Below, piece after piece: positions 24,009 through 31,893 of a stretch of 64,000 bases of DNA. A program made the position numbers and the translations under genes. Source of the stretch: Paenibacillus taiwanensis DSM 18679. GTDB taxonomy: Bacteria; Bacillota; Bacilli; Paenibacillales; Paenibacillaceae. The notes below the pieces were generated by a model. It did no database searches and was not told the origin of the DNA. It worked only from the letters and a program-made list of their open reading frames with translations. The stretch is taken from NCBI RefSeq assembly GCF_000425125.1, contig NZ_KE384306.1, positions 645,705-709,704 of the forward strand. Direction: 5' to 3'. Positions within the stretch are counted from its first letter, which is position 1; each line of letters starts with the position of its first letter.

Positions 24009-25514
24009 TTAGCTGCACGCGCAGTTCAGGACGGGCTTGCGTGCGGCTTGCGTCTCGTCTAGTCGACGGACCTGTGTGGAGTAAGGTGCATTTAATAATA
24101 GTTCTGGATTGTCCTTTGCTTCTTGTGCGATTTGAATCATCGTATCGATGAAGGAATCCAGCGTTTCCTTACTTTCGGTTTCGGTCGGTTCAATCATCAT
24201 ACATTCCTCTACATTAAGCGGGAAGTAGATGGTAGGCGGATGGAAACCAAAGTCGAGCAATCGTTTGGCTACATCAAGTGTGCGGACGCCATATTGTTTA
24301 AGCGCTCGTCCAGACATAACAAACTCGTGCTTGCATACTTGATCGTATGGAAGTTCAAAGTATGGTGCAAGACGACGCATCATGTAGTTAGCGTTCAGTA
24401 CGGCGCATTCAGACACGGTGCGAAGCCCGTCAGGCCCGTAAGTGCGCATATACGTGTATGCACGCACAAGTATGCCGAAATTGCCGTAATAAGCTTTAAC
24501 GCGACCAATGGATGACGGACGATCATAGTCCAAATAATAGGTGCCATCTTCACGTAACGCGACAATCGGCTTCGGCAGGAATGGAATCAGCTTGCTCTTC
24601 ACACCGACAGGTCCTGCGCCAGGGCCACCGCCACCGTGTGGTGTGCTCATCGTCTTGTGTAAGTTCAAATGAACGACATCAAAGCCCATATCGCCAGGGC
24701 GAGTAATTCCCATAATGGCATTCGAGTTAGCTCCGTCATAATACAGCAATCCGCCTGCTTCATGAACGATTTCTGCAATTTCGACTATATGTTCTTCGAA
24801 TAAGCCAAGCGTGCTCGGGTTTGTGAGCATAAGTGCAGCCGTGTCTGGACCTACTACAGCCCGCAAGGCATCAAGATCAACGAGTCCTTGTTGGTTGGAC
24901 TTGATTGTAATCGTCTCCAGCCCTGCGACGGTTGCACTTGCTGGATTGGTGCCGTGTGAAGAGTCAGGCACGATGACTTTCGTACGCGTCTCGCCGCGGC
25001 TTTCATGATAAGCACGGATCATCATCAGTCCAGTCCATTCACCATGTGCGCCTGCCGCGGGCTGAAGTGTCACTTGATCCATTCCCGTTAATGCACCCAA
25101 ATCTTGTTGCAGCGTATACATCATCTCCAGTGCGCCTTGCAGACTGGATTCGGGCTGATAAGGGTGTATTTTGGCAAAGCCGTTAAAGCGTGCCGTGTCT
25201 TCGTTAATTTTAGGATTGTATTTCATCGTACACGAACCGAGCGGATAGAAGCCATTGTCGATCCCGAAATTACGACGGGATAGCTCTGTATAATGGCGAA
25301 TGACATCAACTTCATATACTTCAGGAAGTTCAGCCGGTTGACTGCGTAAATAATTAGCAGGAATGAGGCTGCCTACGTCTTCGAGAGGTACGTCACAAGC
25401 AGGAAGAGAATAAGCGACACGTCCAGGACGGCTTAGCTCGAAGATTAGCTTTTTGTCCGGTTGAGCTGGTGCTTGTGTCAGTGGAGCTTCGGCTTGTGTG
25501 TGTTGGTCCGTCAT
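24009..25514 (-). CDS. gcvPB: Glycine dehydrogenase (decarboxylating) subunit 2
   Basis: PLP-binding half of the P-protein of the glycine cleavage system, 501 residues, as in other Firmicutes with a split P-protein. It decarboxylates glycine and passes the aminomethyl group to lipoyl-GcvH. The PLP lysine is Lys287 in [19 protein letters not shown], and SCTMKYNPK and [11 protein letters not shown] are conserved. The start overlaps the gcvPA stop by 4 bases. The last 20 residues or so look like a variable tail. Confidence 0.97.
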
Positions 25515-26872
25515 ACGAGCACCTCCTTGAGCTGCGCCTTAAAGGCGTCGATTTCATCCTTCGTCCGTCGTTCAGTTACGGCAAGCAGCAGATGCCCAGA
25601 CAATTCAGGATACGCCTGACCGAGATCATAGCCACCGATATAACCTTTAGCAATGAGCTGCTCGTTGATAGCTGGTATCGAAGCTCCCTCAGGAAGCTTT
25701 ACGACAAACTCATTAAAGAACGGAGCGTAGAAGGCAAGCTGGAGACTATCGTCTTGTTCATATTGCTTGGCTGCGTAATGTGCTTTCTGAACATTTAGCT
25801 GTGCGACCTCTTGCAAACCTGCTTTGCCCATTGTGGACAAGTATACAGATGCACATAAAGCAAGCAAGGCTTGGTTTGAGCATATGTTGGACGTTGCTTT
25901 TTCTCGGCGAATATGCTGCTCGCGCGCCTGCAGAGTGAGTACAAAGCCACGCTTGCCGTCACGGTCTACAGTCTGTCCTACAATGCGTCCAGGCATTCGG
26001 CGCATGAGAGCTTCCGATACAGCGAAAAATCCGCATGTTGGTCCGCCTAGTGAAGCGGAGATGCCAAATGGTTGTGCGTCTCCCACGACAACGTCGGCAC
26101 CGAGCTTGGCCGGAGTTTCTAATAAACCGAGTGAGAGCGGATTAGTGCTCATAACAAGCAAGCCCTTCTGTGCATGTACGATGTCCGCAATAGTTGTGAC
26201 ATCTTCAATGGCACCAAAGAAGTTAGGGGACTGCACGACAACAGCAGCAGTTTGATCGGATACGAGATCTTTAAGCTTATCGAGGTCTGTAGTACCTTCG
26301 TTATAATCAACCTCAACGACGTCCAGATCAAGTCCTTTTGCAGTTGTATATACAATTTCACGTGCTTCAGGATGAACGGTACGAGAGATCACGATTTGTT
26401 TGCGCTTCGTATGCGCGCTTGCGAGTGCACTTGCTTCACCAAGTGCAGTTGCCCCGTCGTACATGCTTGCATTGGCAACAGCCATGCCCGTCAGTTCACA
26501 TATATAGGATTGAAATTCAAATATCGCTTGCAGTTCGCCTTGGCTGATCTCGGGTTGATATGGCGTATAGGCCGTATAAAATTCAGAGCGAGAAACGACA
26601 TGATTAATGACCACTGGCACGTGATGATCGTAGATGCCTGCGCCAAGAAAGCTGACATACTGCTCGAAGTCGGCGTTGCGTTCTGCTAGCTGCTTCATAT
26701 GCTTCAAGAGCGACGGCTCATCTAGCGCTTCTGACATCGGCAGCGTACCTTGGTAACGAACAGCCTCGGGTATATCGTGGAACAGTTCCTCTACGGAGGA
26801 AATGCCAATGACTTTCATCATCTCGGCTTGATCCTGTTCAGTCATCGGGATGTAACGATGCTTCTGCTTCAT
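25511..26872 (-). CDS. gcvPA: Glycine dehydrogenase (decarboxylating) subunit 1
   Basis: Partner subunit of the split P-protein, 453 residues, the expected length. It begins [18 protein letters not shown] with conserved [33 protein letters not shown] and [19 protein letters not shown] with 9-base spacing precedes the start. It forms an alpha2-beta2 enzyme with GcvPB. It follows gcvT after a gap of 79 bases and overlaps gcvPB, so all three are made from one riboswitch-controlled mRNA. Confidence 0.97.
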
Positions 26873-26951
26873 CTTGTAGTTCTCTCCTTCGGTAAGGATG
26901 AATTAGGCAACAGATGCTTGCTGTATGAAGTATGAAATGAACGTCATGTTA

Positions 26952-28058
26952 TTATGCTTGATTACGTTTATAAAAAGGTGCTTTAATGACTTGGGCTTTC
27001 AGCTGTTTACCGCGTATTTCCACGTTCAGTTCAGTTCCTAGCTCCGCATATTTGGTGTCGATGAGAGCTAGAGCAAGATTACGCTTGAGGGTCGGTGACT
27101 GTGTTCCTGTCGTTACTTCGCCTATTTGTTTGCCATCAGCGTATACAGGGTAGTGGGCACGGGCGATGCCTTTATCGATCATTTCTAATCCGACAAGCTT
27201 ACGCTTCAGGCCCTCTTGCTTTTGCTGTTGAAGGGCATCACTGCCGATAAAGGGTCCGCTGTCAAGCTTAACAAACATGCCAAGCGAGGCCTCAAGTGGT
27301 GATATATGTTGTGAGAGTTCTTGCCCATACAGTGGTAGTCTCGCTTCGAAGCGTAGGGTGTCGCGTGCGCCAAGTCCTGCCGGAACGAGTCCATGTGGCT
27401 CTCCAGCAGCCATAATGATATCCCAAAGCTTAGGTGCATCAGAGGATGCGGCATATAACTCAAAGCCGTCTTCTCCCGTGTAGCCTGTACGGGATACGAG
27501 CGCAGTCACACCTTTAATATTTACGTGTTCTTCAAAGTGAAACGGCTTCAACTGTGCAACAGGTGTGTCTGTCAGCGAACTTAGAATTGCAACGGCTTGT
27601 GGGCCTTGCAGCGCAATTAATGCGGTCTCGTCGGATACGTTACGAAGGTTAACGCCACTAGCAGGTATATGTTGCTCCAGCCAAGCGAAATCCTTATCGA
27701 TATTAGAGGCGTTTACGACTAGCATATAACGTCCCTCTGCAACACGATAAACGAGCAGATCGTCTACGACGCCGCCGTGTGGGTAACAGAGCAAAGAATA
27801 TTGGGCTTGACCATCAACTAGGCGGGTAACGTCATTTGTGGTCACCCCTTGAATAAAGGCTTCTGCCTGCGGGCCTTCAATCCAAAATTCACCCATATGC
27901 GACACATCAAACAAGCCGGCTTGTTGACGAACGGCATCATGTTCTTTTTGAATACCAGAAAATTGAACAGGGAGTTCCCAGCCACCGAAGTCTATGCAAC
28001 GGGCACCAGGATAGTTGGCGTATTGCGGAAATAAGGGGGTTCGCTTCAATTCTGTCAT
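26952..28058 (-). CDS. gcvT: Glycine cleavage system T protein (aminomethyltransferase)
   Basis: Tetrahydrofolate-dependent aminomethyltransferase, about 368 residues, which releases ammonia and 5,10-methylene-THF from aminomethyl-lipoyl-GcvH. Conserved stretches are FDVSHMGEFWIEGP, YSLLCYPHGGVVDDLLVYR, SRTGYTGEDGFELY and GLGARDTLRFEA. A longer reading frame to 28100 exists, but GAGGTG at 28064-28069 and the typical start MTELKRTPLF place the start at 28058. It is the first gene of the operon behind the glycine riboswitch. Confidence 0.97.
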   Translation of the reverse strand: MTELKRTPLFPQYANYPGARCIDFGGWELPVQFSGIQKEHDAVRQQAGLFDVSHMGEFWIEGPQAEAFIQGVTTNDVTRLVDGQAQYSLLCYPHGGVVDDLLVYRVAEGRYMLVVNASNIDKDFAWLEQHIPASGVNLRNVSDETALIALQGPQAVAILSSLTDTPVAQLKPFHFEEHVNIKGVTALVSRTGYTGEDGFELYAASSDAPKLWDIIMAAGEPHGLVPAGLGARDTLRFEARLPLYGQELSQHISPLEASLGMFVKLDSGPFIGSDALQQQKQEGLKRKLVGLEMIDKGIARAHYPVYADGKQIGEVTTGTQSPTLKRNLALALIDTKYAELGTELNVEIRGKQLKAQVIKAPFYKRNQA

Positions 28059-28147
28059 GTCATCACCTCGTATGATCTGTTTGACCAGCAACACATGCAA
28101 AAAAGAACAGGCAAAAGAAACGCAGGCTTAATCCAACAGCCCGTATA

Positions 28148-28413
28148 TCTTCTGCTCTGTCCCTTGTACCTGAGAGTGTCCTCATAACTTTAGAAGCGAT
28201 CGCGTCACTCGGGGTGAACGCTTACATCATTCTTTATGAGTTTCCCCTTGGGCGACCTTGTCGCAAATATGCAAGCTGTTACGCTCACAACTGACAAGAT
28301 TCTCTCCAGAGGTGCGTCCGGTAAAAGTCCTTTTGCCTGAGAGATTCACCTTAACGGCTTACTCCTTCGGCGTTACGCGCTAGATTGCTAAACTAAGCCG
28401 TAATCTCTCCCTA
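28148..28413 (-). ncRNA. Tandem glycine riboswitch upstream of gcvT
   Basis: The minus strand begins GGGAGAGATTACGGC near 28412 and runs through CGCCGAAGGAGTAA, CTCTCAGGCAAAAGGAC and CGGACGC..CTCTGGAGAG, which is a full glycine aptamer. A second, more divergent aptamer continues through GGGGAAACTCATAAAG, TGACGCGATCGC and ACTCTCAGGTACAAGGGACAGA to about 28149. This is the classic two-aptamer arrangement and lies directly before gcvT. In Bacillus such riboswitches turn the operon on when glycine is high. Confidence 0.95.
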
Positions 28414-28451
28414 TACCTTCATCCGCTGTTTTTTTAATTGTTATACCTACA

Positions 28452-28481
28452 TTATTACTTGAACATTCCTGACATTGTCAA
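28452..28481 (-). promoter_or_regulatory. Sigma-A-type promoter for the gcvT operon
   Basis: Minus strand: TTGACA at 28481-28476, an 18-base spacer, and TAATAA at 28457-28452, about 40 bases before the first aptamer. Good match to the vegetative consensus. Confidence 0.7.
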
Positions 28482-28723
28482 TCCATTTATTCAATTTTGA
28501 CGAAAATCATAAGAGTATTGACAGGCACTATCGAACTGCACTACCCTATAGGTAACTCGGGGACGCCTGCACAGGCGTTAAAATAAAAGCAGCATATAAC
28601 CAACTTTGTTAGCGCATACAGAATCAGACCAGTTGTCTGTACGTTTAAAGTAGTGTATTCATTCCTTTATATATTCTTGATGGTCATTTCGTTATGATTA
28701 CGCAAAGAAGAGAGGGTTCTATG

Positions 28724-29113
28724 ATGAGCGAAATTAAGAACAACCTGCTGTACAGTGAGGAGCATGAGTGGGCGTTAGTAGTTGGTGAGCGCACGGTGCG
28801 CATCGGTATTACGGACCATGCGCAGCATCAATTGGGCGACATTGTTTTTCTTGAGTTTCCCGAGGTAGGCACTGCGTTGTCGGCTGGTGACAGTATGGGC
28901 TCCATTGAATCGGTAAAGACCGTATCGGAATTGTACACGCCGGTTACTGGCAAAGTGACAAAAGTAAACACAGAGCTGGAAGAATCACCTGAGCAAGTGA
29001 ATACAGAACCGTATGAGAGTGGCTGGATTGTTGAGATTGAAGTGGAGGGCAGCATGGAAGACGCGCTAAAACAACTGCTTTCTCCTGAACGATACGCGGC
29101 CATTACAGAATAA
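28724..29113 (+). CDS. gcvH: Glycine cleavage system H protein
   Basis: Lipoyl carrier protein of about 129 residues that shuttles the aminomethyl intermediate between P, T and L proteins. The lipoylated residue is Lys65 in MGSIESVKTVSELY. Conserved HEW near the N terminus and ESGWIVEIEV near the end fit GcvH. ATGs at 28694, 28721 and 28724 are in frame. GAGAGGG at 28710-28716 is best spaced for 28724. It is divergent from gcvT-PA-PB and therefore outside the riboswitch transcript. Confidence 0.95.
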   Translation: MSEIKNNLLYSEEHEWALVVGERTVRIGITDHAQHQLGDIVFLEFPEVGTALSAGDSMGSIESVKTVSELYTPVTGKVTKVNTELEESPEQVNTEPYESGWIVEIEVEGSMEDALKQLLSPERYAAITE

Positions 29114-29294: not shown

Positions 29295-29481
29295 GCGTGT
29301 AGACGCATGTCTGCCTGTACTTATGCAGGGGACGGACAACAACTATCAATAATGATAAAAATAAAAATGCTTGAATTGTAAGACTTACTCGTGTTCTGGC
29401 ATCAGACAAGATAGAAGCGGATAACGTTGGCAAGCTCAACAATACATTTGTAACTTGCAGCAGAGGAAATGAGGTTGGAAG

Positions 29482-31332
29482 ATGGTGAAGACAACAGGTA
29501 AATGGCTTGGTCAAAGCGTAGTTGCACAACCGATTGAAACGGCACCGATAGCGGAGTTACTGACAGCGAGTAGAGCAGCGGATGAGACACGCATGCGCGA
29601 AGAAACGGCACTTGTGAGGCAGGCTCAGCTTGGGGATCGCACCGCGTTTGGCGAGCTTGTGCGCAGACATCGGCAGGAGGCATTTCGTTGGGCGAGACAG
29701 ATTGCCAAGCAGGATGCACTGGCTGAAGATATCGTGCAAGATGCGTTATTAAATGCATTCCTACATGTAGGATCGGTAACGGATGCAAGCCGATTTGTAC
29801 CTTGGCTCCATCGGATCGTGCGCAACCAAGCTTATACGAAGCTGCGTCGTGGCGGTCCCTATGCGAAAGAGACGCCTGTTCCCTATGATGAAGCGTCTCA
29901 TCCTAATGCTCGGGTGGACTGTCCCAATGTCGAGAGCATTGCCAAACATGTGGCTGCCAGGCGTTCGGGTACATCAACGAATACATTAGAATCTGAGTCC
30001 CGTGTGCATTTAGGGAATGAGACATTGGACAAGGTGATGCGTGGTGAAACAGCCATCTTTATCGTACAAATGCTACAGCACTTAAAGCCGAAAGAACGAC
30101 GCATCTTCGAGGCTCATTTCTTTGAACAGCTGGCACCTGCTGAGATAGCTGAGCTACTGCAAGTGTCAACGGGTGTCGTCTATACGTCTATCCATCGGTC
30201 CAAAACGAAGCTTCAGCAGCAAGTTATACGTTCAACGCTCCGCTTCATGGTACACGAGAGGAGGGAGCACGGGCTGATGAAACGCAAAATACTCGATTCG
30301 GAACGTTACAAGCAATTGTTTCGCAGCGCAAATGGCCAGCCGTGCGCATGGTCATCGGCTGGTTTGGCGATGTACGGCATGTTATCAAGCGCAGAGCCAG
30401 AGCGGAACATGACTTTACAGGAAGTGATGGGCTTGAGCTCACTGCCGTTCCGTCTGCAAGTCAGAGAGGGCACCGTCGATATTGCGGGCCCGACAGCTTA
30501 CGATTGGCAGCACGTCTTCCGGCAAGGGATGCAGCGCTGTGGAGCTGAGATTCGTGTTGTTGGCACGGATTGCTTTCAGCCCCCAACAGCAGACCAGTTG
30601 AGTGATGCGCTTCGGCTTATAACGGATAGCGTGGATAAGGGCGTTCCGGTTATGGTGTGGGATATGCACGTATCTGAATTTGGTCTCATTTATGGCTACG
30701 ATGACAAGCAACAGGTTGTGTATGCGATTGATCCCCTTGGGGACGGCCCGATTTCTTATGAGCAATTGGGCCGTAGACAATTGGGAGAACTGTTTGTAGC
30801 AGCTTATCGCTACGAGCACAAGCTTAGACCTGAAGACACGTTTCGTATGACGTTACAGGATGCGGTTCGACACCTCCGCGGGGAGGATTGGCACATTTTA
30901 CACTTTTCGCACGGGCTTGAAGCGTTTACGGCTTGGATTCACGCGCTGCGCAGCGGTACGGCTGATGTGTTAGGTAATGCCTATCAAGCAGCGACAGCAG
31001 CTGATGACCGTAGTTATGCTGCGCAGTTTTTTGCGCACTGGGTAACTTATTTTAACAATAAGCAGCAACGCTCCACTAAGGAGCGGGTTCAGTACGAGGC
31101 ATGGGAGCAGGATGCCGCCAAATTGCAGCAACTGTATGAGCGGTCCAGTCAGGCTCTCCACAGCGTTGCGACTCAATTTCCGTTTCCGAGCGGGGGAAAT
31201 CCGCGTGATCGAGTGGTAGTTGACCATGCGGTCGCGGACCTGACAGTAGCACAAGCGGCGGAGCGGGAAGCAGCAGCGCTCATGCAGGAACTGATTTATA
31301 AGATGGAGCTCACTTTAGAGACGAAAGGATGA
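29482..31332 (+). CDS. Sigma-70-family protein fused to a C39-like peptidase domain
   Basis: Reading frame of 616 residues with two parts. Residues 44-125 resemble sigma-70 region 2 (LVRQAQLGDRTAFGELVRRH, AEDIVQDALLNAF, RFVPWLHRIVRNQAY), and 197-247 are region 4 with its helix-turn-helix (PAEIAELLQVSTGVVYTSIHRSK). From about residue 266 the sequence becomes a C39-like or BtrH-like domain: Cys288 in GQPCAWSSAGLAMYGM, His396 in WDMHVSEFGLIYGYDD and Asp417 in YAIDPLG are candidate catalytic positions. The rest (430-616) is helical and unassigned. An internal ATG at 30277 (Met266) has AGGAGGGAG at 30259-30267, so the second half may also be made alone. The targets of the sigma part are unknown. 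Confidence 0.8.
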   Translation: MVKTTGKWLGQSVVAQPIETAPIAELLTASRAADETRMREETALVRQAQLGDRTAFGELVRRHRQEAFRWARQIAKQDALAEDIVQDALLNAFLHVGSVTDASRFVPWLHRIVRNQAYTKLRRGGPYAKETPVPYDEASHPNARVDCPNVESIAKHVAARRSGTSTNTLESESRVHLGNETLDKVMRGETAIFIVQMLQHLKPKERRIFEAHFFEQLAPAEIAELLQVSTGVVYTSIHRSKTKLQQQVIRSTLRFMVHERREHGLMKRKILDSERYKQLFRSANGQPCAWSSAGLAMYGMLSSAEPERNMTLQEVMGLSSLPFRLQVREGTVDIAGPTAYDWQHVFRQGMQRCGAEIRVVGTDCFQPPTADQLSDALRLITDSVDKGVPVMVWDMHVSEFGLIYGYDDKQQVVYAIDPLGDGPISYEQLGRRQLGELFVAAYRYEHKLRPEDTFRMTLQDAVRHLRGEDWHILHFSHGLEAFTAWIHALRSGTADVLGNAYQAATAADDRSYAAQFFAHWVTYFNNKQQRSTKERVQYEAWEQDAAKLQQLYERSSQALHSVATQFPFPSGGNPRDRVVVDHAVADLTVAQAAEREAAALMQELIYKMELTLETKG

Positions 31333-31700
31333 TGGAAATGTTTAGAGCTTTACATTGTGCCGCTTTATATACGGATGATATGGAGAAGTCAAAAGCGTTT
31401 TACGGCAAGTTAGGTGTGCTGCCTGCGTGGGAAGTGAAACGACCGCTTGAAGGCGGGCGGGAGTGGACGCTTACTGGGCTGAAGTTTCCTGATGGTGGGG
31501 CGCAGCTCGTTTTGCAAAATAATCCGCAGCTTAAAGAAATCGACATTGAAGTACGCGTGGAAAGTGTCCGTCTGGTGTACGAGCGTTTAAGCCAAGATCC
31601 TGAAGTAAAATGGATACAGACCCCGTTCCAAGTAGAAGACGGAAATGTAGCTGTTATGCAAGCGCCTGATGGGAATGTATTAGTGCTAGTGGGTCCTTAA
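31329..31700 (+). CDS. VOC-superfamily (glyoxalase/bleomycin-resistance-like) protein
   Basis: Single VOC-fold protein of 123 residues with the pattern HCAALYTDDMEKSKAFYGKLGV and C-terminal PDGNVLVLVGP, two beta-alpha-beta-beta-beta units. The first ATG overlaps the preceding stop by 4 bases and ATGs at 31332 and 31338 are alternatives. It is probably co-translated with the sigma/C39 gene. Substrate unknown. Members include glyoxalases, dioxygenases and binding proteins. Confidence 0.85.
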   Translation: MMEMFRALHCAALYTDDMEKSKAFYGKLGVLPAWEVKRPLEGGREWTLTGLKFPDGGAQLVLQNNPQLKEIDIEVRVESVRLVYERLSQDPEVKWIQTPFQVEDGNVAVMQAPDGNVLVLVGP

Positions 31701-31714
31701 ATTATGGCAAGTGT

Positions 31715-31756
31715 AGCCCCCTCTATTTCTCAATGGAAATGGAAGGGGCTATTTTT
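31715..31756 (+). terminator. Terminator after the VOC gene
   Basis: AGCCCC..CTATTTC pairs with GGAAATGG..GGGGCT (31715-31750), followed by ATTTTT. Confidence 0.85.
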
Positions 31757-31893
31757 GTTGGAGATAACTGCTTATGTTGGCAGGTACATGTGAAAAAGAG
31801 CATACCACAGAGCCTTAACAATTCGCTATAATGGCTTATCCAACATCGAGCCTATACATACAAACACTATAACAAGACAGGGGTTGTCATAAA

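Follow-up and report, generated by a model that had tools for sequence, protein, structure and literature searches.

Within the window, a 64,000-nucleotide stretch of the Paenibacillus taiwanensis DSM 18679 genome, a single reading frame joins an ECF-type sigma factor to a second, sensor-like domain and is followed by a gene for a VOC protein (Table 1). Inside this frame sigma-70 regions 2 and 4 both score above their Pfam cut-offs and region 3 gives no match, which is an ECF-type layout, and the NCBIfam sigma70-ECF model TIGR02937 matches the sigma part with 85 bits against a cut-off of 42.9. The VOC frame overlaps the 3' end of the fused gene by 4 nucleotides and reaches 26.0 bits with PF00903 (cut-off 20.6), a match to the VOC superfamily profile. 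The initial annotation had described both the joining of the sigma regions to another domain in one frame and the coupling of the VOC gene, and on both counts it was right. A hairpin followed by a T-run probably ends the two-gene operon, the region 31708-31762 having a folding energy of -26.8 kcal/mol (z -5.4); a simple sigma-70 and terminator scan gave nothing above shuffled sequences, and this hairpin is absent from its list. The adjacent genes at 25511-29113, which we take from their translations to be glycine-cleavage genes, have no evident link to the sigma operon. The genome of 5.2 Mb contains one match to the sensor-like domain.

Table 1. Features of the sigma-sensor operon, in positions of the window.
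Feature	Position	Strand	Basis
Fused gene, 616 aa: ECF-type sigma factor and C39/BtrH-fold sensor-like domain	29482..31332	+	ORF, Pfam, homologues
Sigma-70 region 2 (residues 59-123)	29656..29850	+	Pfam PF04542 (Sigma70_r2), E 3.3e-12
Sigma-70 region 4 (residues 194-244)	30061..30213	+	Pfam PF08281 (Sigma70_r4_2), E 3.5e-12
Internal ribosome-binding site AGGAGG(GAG) (AGGAGG at 30259-30264) and in-frame ATG (30277-30279, Met266); candidate start of a free 351-aa sensor domain	30259..30279	+	Sequence, homologue conservation
Sensor-like domain, residues 266-616: C39-like part ~266-445, C-terminal helical part ~450-615	30277..31332	+	AlphaFold, Foldseek
Glu399 codon, near the site of the C39-type catalytic His	30676..30678	+	Alignment
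VOC (glyoxalase/bleomycin-resistance superfamily) protein, 123 aa	31329..31700	+	ORF, Pfam
Predicted autoregulated promoter: TGTAAGA (29377-29383), 13-nt spacer, TGGCATC (29397-29403)	29377..29403	+	12 of 14 matches
Strong hairpin then T-run, probably ending the two-gene operon	31713..31752	+	Folding energy

Fold and residues of the C-terminal domain

No family in Pfam reaches E ≤ 1 with residues 266-616, and their best match in NCBIfam has an E-value of 0.059. The corresponding domains of 28 relatives gave no C39, BtrH or SnoaL match in Pfam at E ≤ 0.1; ten families match one member each at that level (best 0.0049; Transglut_core 0.057), and sequence searches against solved structures produced weak, scattered matches only, the best with E-values of 0.024 and 0.049. 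The AlphaFold model of residues 266-616, based on 77 aligned rows, has a mean pLDDT of 95.1 and a pTM of 0.92 and adopts a C39-like fold. The full-length model is moderate (pLDDT 79, pTM 0.64), and in it the contact between sigma factor and sensor is not firmly placed. Against the PDB, Foldseek returned below E 0.001 three chains of AziU3/AziU2 complexes (7wuw, 8gs1) and CtaG (9qvo), the best being 7wuw_C at 1.5e-6, with CtaG at 7.5e-4 and CcbD (7yn1) at about 1e-3. The likeness is one of overall fold, at 9-13% identity and with TM-scores on the query of 0.42-0.53; the C39-like domain 3zua itself is reached at an E-value of 0.26 only. Judging from their names, AziU3, CtaG and CcbD are antibiotic-biosynthesis proteins of C39/BtrH-like type. 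These matches bear out the earlier view that the sigma factor is tied to a C39-like fold, although, unlike the three proteins, the domain described here is attached to a transcription factor and does not keep the triad residues proposed for it.

That triad, Cys288/His396/Asp417, had been described by the initial annotation in a domain that it called peptidase-like or peptide-sensing. The residues do stand at these positions in the window's protein, but two of them are almost private to it. In the alignment of 77 rows, from which 4 of the 80 loci described below (L033, L039, L060 and L063) were dropped because our crude gene caller had missed them, Cys288 is found in two rows, those of the window and of its 87%-identical relative L031, with a cysteine somewhere in columns 285-293 in 12 further rows; His396 is likewise found in two, with phenylalanine at this position in 62. 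Position 417 is Asp in 70 rows and Glu in 7. In the model the first helix of the C39 part spans residues 292-304, one strand begins at 400 and another ends at 416; presumably, then, a catalytic cysteine should be sought near 292 and the histidine and aspartate on the strands beginning at 400 and ending at 416. Position 292 is occupied by Ser in 47 rows and by Thr in 25, and position 291 by Thr in 53. Glu399 is present in all 77 rows, an invariance that is built in because 76 of them come from a scan in which Glu was demanded there; in a set collected free of this pattern it is Glu in 26 of 28. We have abandoned the triad, and its residues not being conserved, the peptidase-like assignment finds no support; as judged from alignment and model, the domain is best read as a pseudoenzyme sensor, which would bind rather than cut.

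Relatives, fusion and the internal start

The domain is present in 25 of the 60 genomes searched, the window's own being among the 60, and in 191 of 392 genomes of the order at E ≤ 1e-10. A scan of named genomes yielded 293 relatives, and the best 80 of these were kept as loci; they come mostly from Paenibacillus, and also from Cohnella, Brevibacillus, Bacillus, other Bacillaceae, Melghirimyces and Paenactinomyces. Among these best 80 of 293, the sigma factor is fused to the domain in 28, encoded directly upstream in 47 (that is, within 400 nucleotides from profile hit to profile hit) and directly downstream in one; L038, one of the fused loci, was scored as such through region 4 only, most of its sigma part lying in another frame. 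At L039 and L041 the sigma gene lies farther upstream of the domain, at about 620 and 420 nucleotides, respectively; at L063 there is no sigma gene nearby, and at L109 none is adjacent. There are at least 85 distinct fused frames; 60 fused regions were taken for analysis from among the matches listed. On a tree of 151 domains the fused or split label requires two changes, and 53 of the 56 split rows, together with three solo rows, lie on one side of a branch whose neighbours are fused; this is a quick tree with long branches, its root was not inferred, and the branch of the split group has a support of 89 and is not starred. Because the label needs only these two changes and the main split group sits among fused branches, the fusion is, on this phylogeny, old. 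A recent fusion, one of the two possibilities given by the initial annotation, does not agree with such a tree, and the sequencing error that would go with homologues being always split is countered by the abundance of both forms; the closest relative, L031, is fused too. Taken together, the counts of fused homologues and the tree rule out a recent fusion or a frameshift.

At the junction of the two parts, the internal Shine-Dalgarno sequence forms a duplex with the 16S tail of -11.5 kcal/mol, compared with -9.2 kcal/mol at the main start. A start codon lies within two codons of the Met266 column in 52 of 85 distinct fused genes, and 46 of the 85 combine it with a strong Shine-Dalgarno sequence (a 16S-tail duplex of -8 kcal/mol or better), whereas 1000 draws in which synonymous codons were resampled gene by gene average 10.7 and never exceed 20. 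Across the 85 fused homologues, a strong Shine-Dalgarno sequence precedes 39 of 44 junction ATGs and 22 of 1161 other internal ATGs, a difference beyond chance, and in a word-based count on the first set of 28 genes, thinned to 17, it is present in 13 (resampling mean 6.0, maximum 12). The bias is visible at single codons: where the start is present, Lys at codon -5 is AAG in 24 of 24 genes and Arg is AGG in 24 of 25 (gene backgrounds 0.50 and 0.11), and where it is absent the counts are 2 of 3 and 1 of 7, tests which count related genes as independent. A search over five registers finds a Shine-Dalgarno sequence in 51 of 52 genes with the start and in 5 of 33 without it, the 51 having a median pairwise identity of 45% and a minimum of 25%. 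In five phylogenetically independent pairs, start and Shine-Dalgarno sequence go together in a mean of 4.4 and in opposite directions in 0.0 (median p 0.125), which is not significant. In split relatives the second gene begins between -4 and 70 nucleotides past the sigma stop, with a strong Shine-Dalgarno sequence in 38 of 47, the candidate start with the best such sequence having been taken in each case.

These comparisons of coding sequences lead us to the view that, in much of the family, selection acts on translation from Met266. Two products would not be essential in all of its members, since a start at the junction is lacking in 33 of the 85 fused genes. The strong Shine-Dalgarno sequence and ATG reported by the initial annotation are genuine; its suggestion that a full-length and a short protein are deliberately made stands as far as the internal start is kept at the DNA level, and from this we infer the short product itself.

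Promoter-like motif and neighbouring genes

The best gapped bipartite word occurs in 32 of 79 regions upstream of sigma genes, compared with 5-6 in three shuffles, and a second gapped word, TGTCA-N18-AGTC, in 12 of the 79. Scored as TGATAGA-N-TGGCATC, the motif attains at least 12 of 14 matches in 37 of 79 upstream regions versus 2 of 79 shuffled ones, with a spacer of 13 nucleotides in 35 of the 37 and of 14 in two. Since these matches comprise 34 of 47 split loci, 2 of 29 fused loci (those of the window and of L038) and one of another class, the motif belongs mainly to the split clade; it is shared by the window but is missing from most of the other fused genes. Upstream of the fused gene at L042, L066, L075 and L095 there is a second promoter form, TGTCAGA-N13-TGGAGTC, which suggests that the -35/-10 specificity drifted with the sigma clade.

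In the window's genome the exact site KGTAAGA-N13-TGGCATC occurs once, upstream of the fused gene, and the only exact site of the close relative G003 likewise precedes its own copy; the closest relative of the window has GGTAAGA-N13-TGGCATC. With up to two mismatches, a scan of the window's genome gave 65 sites against 45 in the reversed control, a signal swamped by chance in which no second copy of the promoter stands out. As only its own promoter does, the VOC gene is the one predicted target. Among 394 genomes the split-clade motif has 92 sites in 78 (8 in the reversed control, as a count of rows), many of which, with near-identical spacers across genomes, are probably coding; a stricter form is found in 13 of 392 genomes, with 0 in the control among the matches listed. 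Twenty regions, chosen by eye among the 92 sites and not a random sample, contain 22 sites: seven belong to sigma loci, seven stand before operons that encode VOC, GyrI-like, pentapeptide or nucleotidyltransferase and UvrA-like proteins, and eight resemble chance; in two genomes (L201 and L203) the motif-bearing operons are clearly away from the sigma locus. The pair of genes for a Polbeta-type nucleotidyltransferase and a UvrA-like protein recurs in L203:204-4062, L206, L207 and L098, where it follows either this promoter motif or the sensor operon (Pfam: both genes in L203, the first gene only in L098).

Directly downstream of the domain gene (n = 72) the leading families are GyrI-like (15) and glyoxalase (13), with Epimerase in 2; among 104 distant control genes, which include spurious frames of the crude caller, GyrI-like and glyoxalase occur at most once each, the Pfam run having covered 72 of 77 downstream and 104 of 120 sampled control genes. 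The link to small molecules drawn by the initial annotation is supported by these VOC and GyrI-like neighbours in the relatives, and the VOC protein may, as it suggested, bind the ligand. Passages of PMC5684135 and PMC9570651 describe GyrI-like proteins as able to hydrolyse DNA-alkylating drugs. At 44 of the 80 loci (best 80 of 293) there is no co-directional gene within 200 nucleotides. Single cases include an AlkZ-like gene (L101) and a DNA alkylation repair gene; one AlkZ-related gene occurs in the control too. At L056 and L085 the fused gene is followed by two more genes of the same cluster, giving three domain copies per locus, and then by a GyrI-like cluster gene, possibly a family expansion.

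A separate observation concerns six loci (L074, L084, L088, L092, L094 and L107), in which a protein of 330-340 residues with Cys- and His-containing motifs, YCYANSA and DHYVVAL, is encoded upstream of the fused gene (at 8170-9180 in L088 and in the same place in the other five). The L088 protein, the one of the six that was scanned, has a sub-threshold BtrH_N match (E 0.055), and on its sequence we regard the protein as a candidate active C39/BtrH-like enzyme. A relationship to the sensor domain as a paralogue was considered and set aside, the profile match (probability 15%, E 0.0018 over 71 columns) being unconvincing.

A proposed switch, its alternatives and related systems

We propose, with about an even chance of being right, that the operon encodes a self-regulating, drug- or genotoxin-responsive ECF-type sigma factor that carries its sensor on board and is probably produced in two forms. 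The C-terminal 351 residues would be a pseudoenzyme with the C39/BtrH fold, binding a metabolite or a small toxic molecule without processing it. In the absence of ligand the sensor would keep the sigma part inactive; on binding, the sigma part would be released to RNA polymerase and would transcribe its own operon from the TGTAAGA-N13-TGGCATC promoter, giving more of the sigma-sensor protein and of the VOC protein, which may sequester or destroy the compound. The gene would be read twice, from the first start to yield the full-length protein and from Met266 to yield the sensor alone, and the free sensor could pair with the full-length protein or mop up ligand, setting threshold and shut-off. 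Split relatives would make the same two parts from two genes. More tentatively, and with some doubt on our side, the system may be seen as a family of sigma genes that obtain two proteins from one frame because an internal ribosome-binding site is under selection. One would be the sigma factor with its on-board pseudoenzyme sensor, whose fold is that of antibiotic-biosynthesis enzymes, and the other the sensor in free form; the two would form a self-tuning switch that senses DNA-damaging or other antibiotic-like molecules and turns on protection by VOC, GyrI-like, pentapeptide and UvrA/AlkZ-like proteins. Among the matches listed in searches of open-licence papers, none was a sigma factor of this two-product kind.

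Several other readings of the locus have to be weighed against this switch. An active C39/BtrH-type enzyme, either a peptidase or an amide-forming one, coupled to the sigma factor would be in keeping with the Foldseek neighbours AziU3, CtaG and CcbD, which are biosynthetic proteins, and with the acidic residue at 417 in every row, but the near absence of Cys288 and His396 from the family and the Ser/Thr and Glu residues at 292 and 399, near the places at which a Cys and a His should lie, render it improbable. Also unlikely is a domain that acts as no more than a protein-binding anti-sigma factor and answers to a protein or peptide partner, with the VOC and GyrI genes as cargo: its near-constant pairing with a sigma factor, as neighbour or by fusion, is what soluble anti-sigma factors show, and many loci have no tight downstream gene, but VOC and GyrI-like neighbours are enriched, such genes follow this motif at further sites in other genomes, and the fold is one of enzymes that act on small molecules.

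The internal ribosome-binding site, for its part, could be a leftover of a two-gene ancestor or a by-product of peptide constraint, with only the full-length protein being made. The second gene of split relatives does start at the corresponding place, mostly behind a strong Shine-Dalgarno sequence, and a good third of the fused genes do without a start there; against this, the preference for AAG and AGG goes far beyond what the peptide demands and is confined to genes with the start, 51 divergent genes retain start and Shine-Dalgarno sequence by the looser measure, and the main split group has fused branches as its neighbours (on the unrooted tree and with the support given above), so that we rate such a relic a minor possibility. 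A sequencing error or very recent fusion, for which the existence of split relatives might speak, is negligible in the face of the many distinct fused frames, the two label changes on the tree and the fused relative of 87% identity.

The switch that we favour recalls the ECF41 sigma factors, whose fused extension can act both positively and negatively according to passages of PMC3426412, which give their promoter as TGTCACA-n16-CGTC. Both have a fused C-terminal regulator without an obvious separate anti-sigma gene, a similar bipartite promoter (here a predicted one, with TGTCAGA-N16-AGTC and TGTAAGA/TGATAGA-N16-CATC in the -35 to -10 core, compared with the form in those passages) and adjoining small-molecule enzymes as targets or predicted targets. 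They differ in the extension, which here has about 340 residues and a C39/BtrH fold, whereas that of ECF41 is SnoaL-like, a domain for which Pfam gave no match in the window's extension or in those of the 28 relatives; in the neighbours, mainly COE genes in ECF41, where the window has VOC and the relatives mostly GyrI-like and glyoxalase genes; and in the existence here of split and fused forms and of a conserved internal start. The protein described here is of the kind of ECF sigma factors with a regulatory extension, presumed in this case, of which there are at least 26 groups (PMC8999054, sections 13 and 25); table 2 of that review places ECF264 under regulatory extensions, type 'Others', with its extension unstudied. 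The ECF264 type protein comes from Saccharibacillus sacchari, also of the Paenibacillaceae, and the sigma part described here may already belong to this or a similar catalogued group; compared with the groups described in those sections, the present system is distinguished by the fold of its extension, by its internal start and by its VOC/GyrI neighbours. For the proposed double reading there is a parallel in two-polypeptide phage endolysins, in which an in-frame internal start yields full-length and C-terminal forms, some of which assemble (passages of PMC9430671). As in those passages, one gene would give two in-frame products with a common stop, a prediction in our case; the proteins are unrelated, and here the gene is that of a transcription regulator and the short product is deduced.

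If the proposal is true, the one-protein sigma switches would gain a new sensor fold, and a first example known to us would be at hand of a sigma gene in which selection keeps an internal start for the regulator; the family would also form a natural series that leads from split regulators to fused ones. Through the promoter motif, regulons can be approached in soil bacteria of a common group, and the neighbouring genes point to ligands that can be tested.
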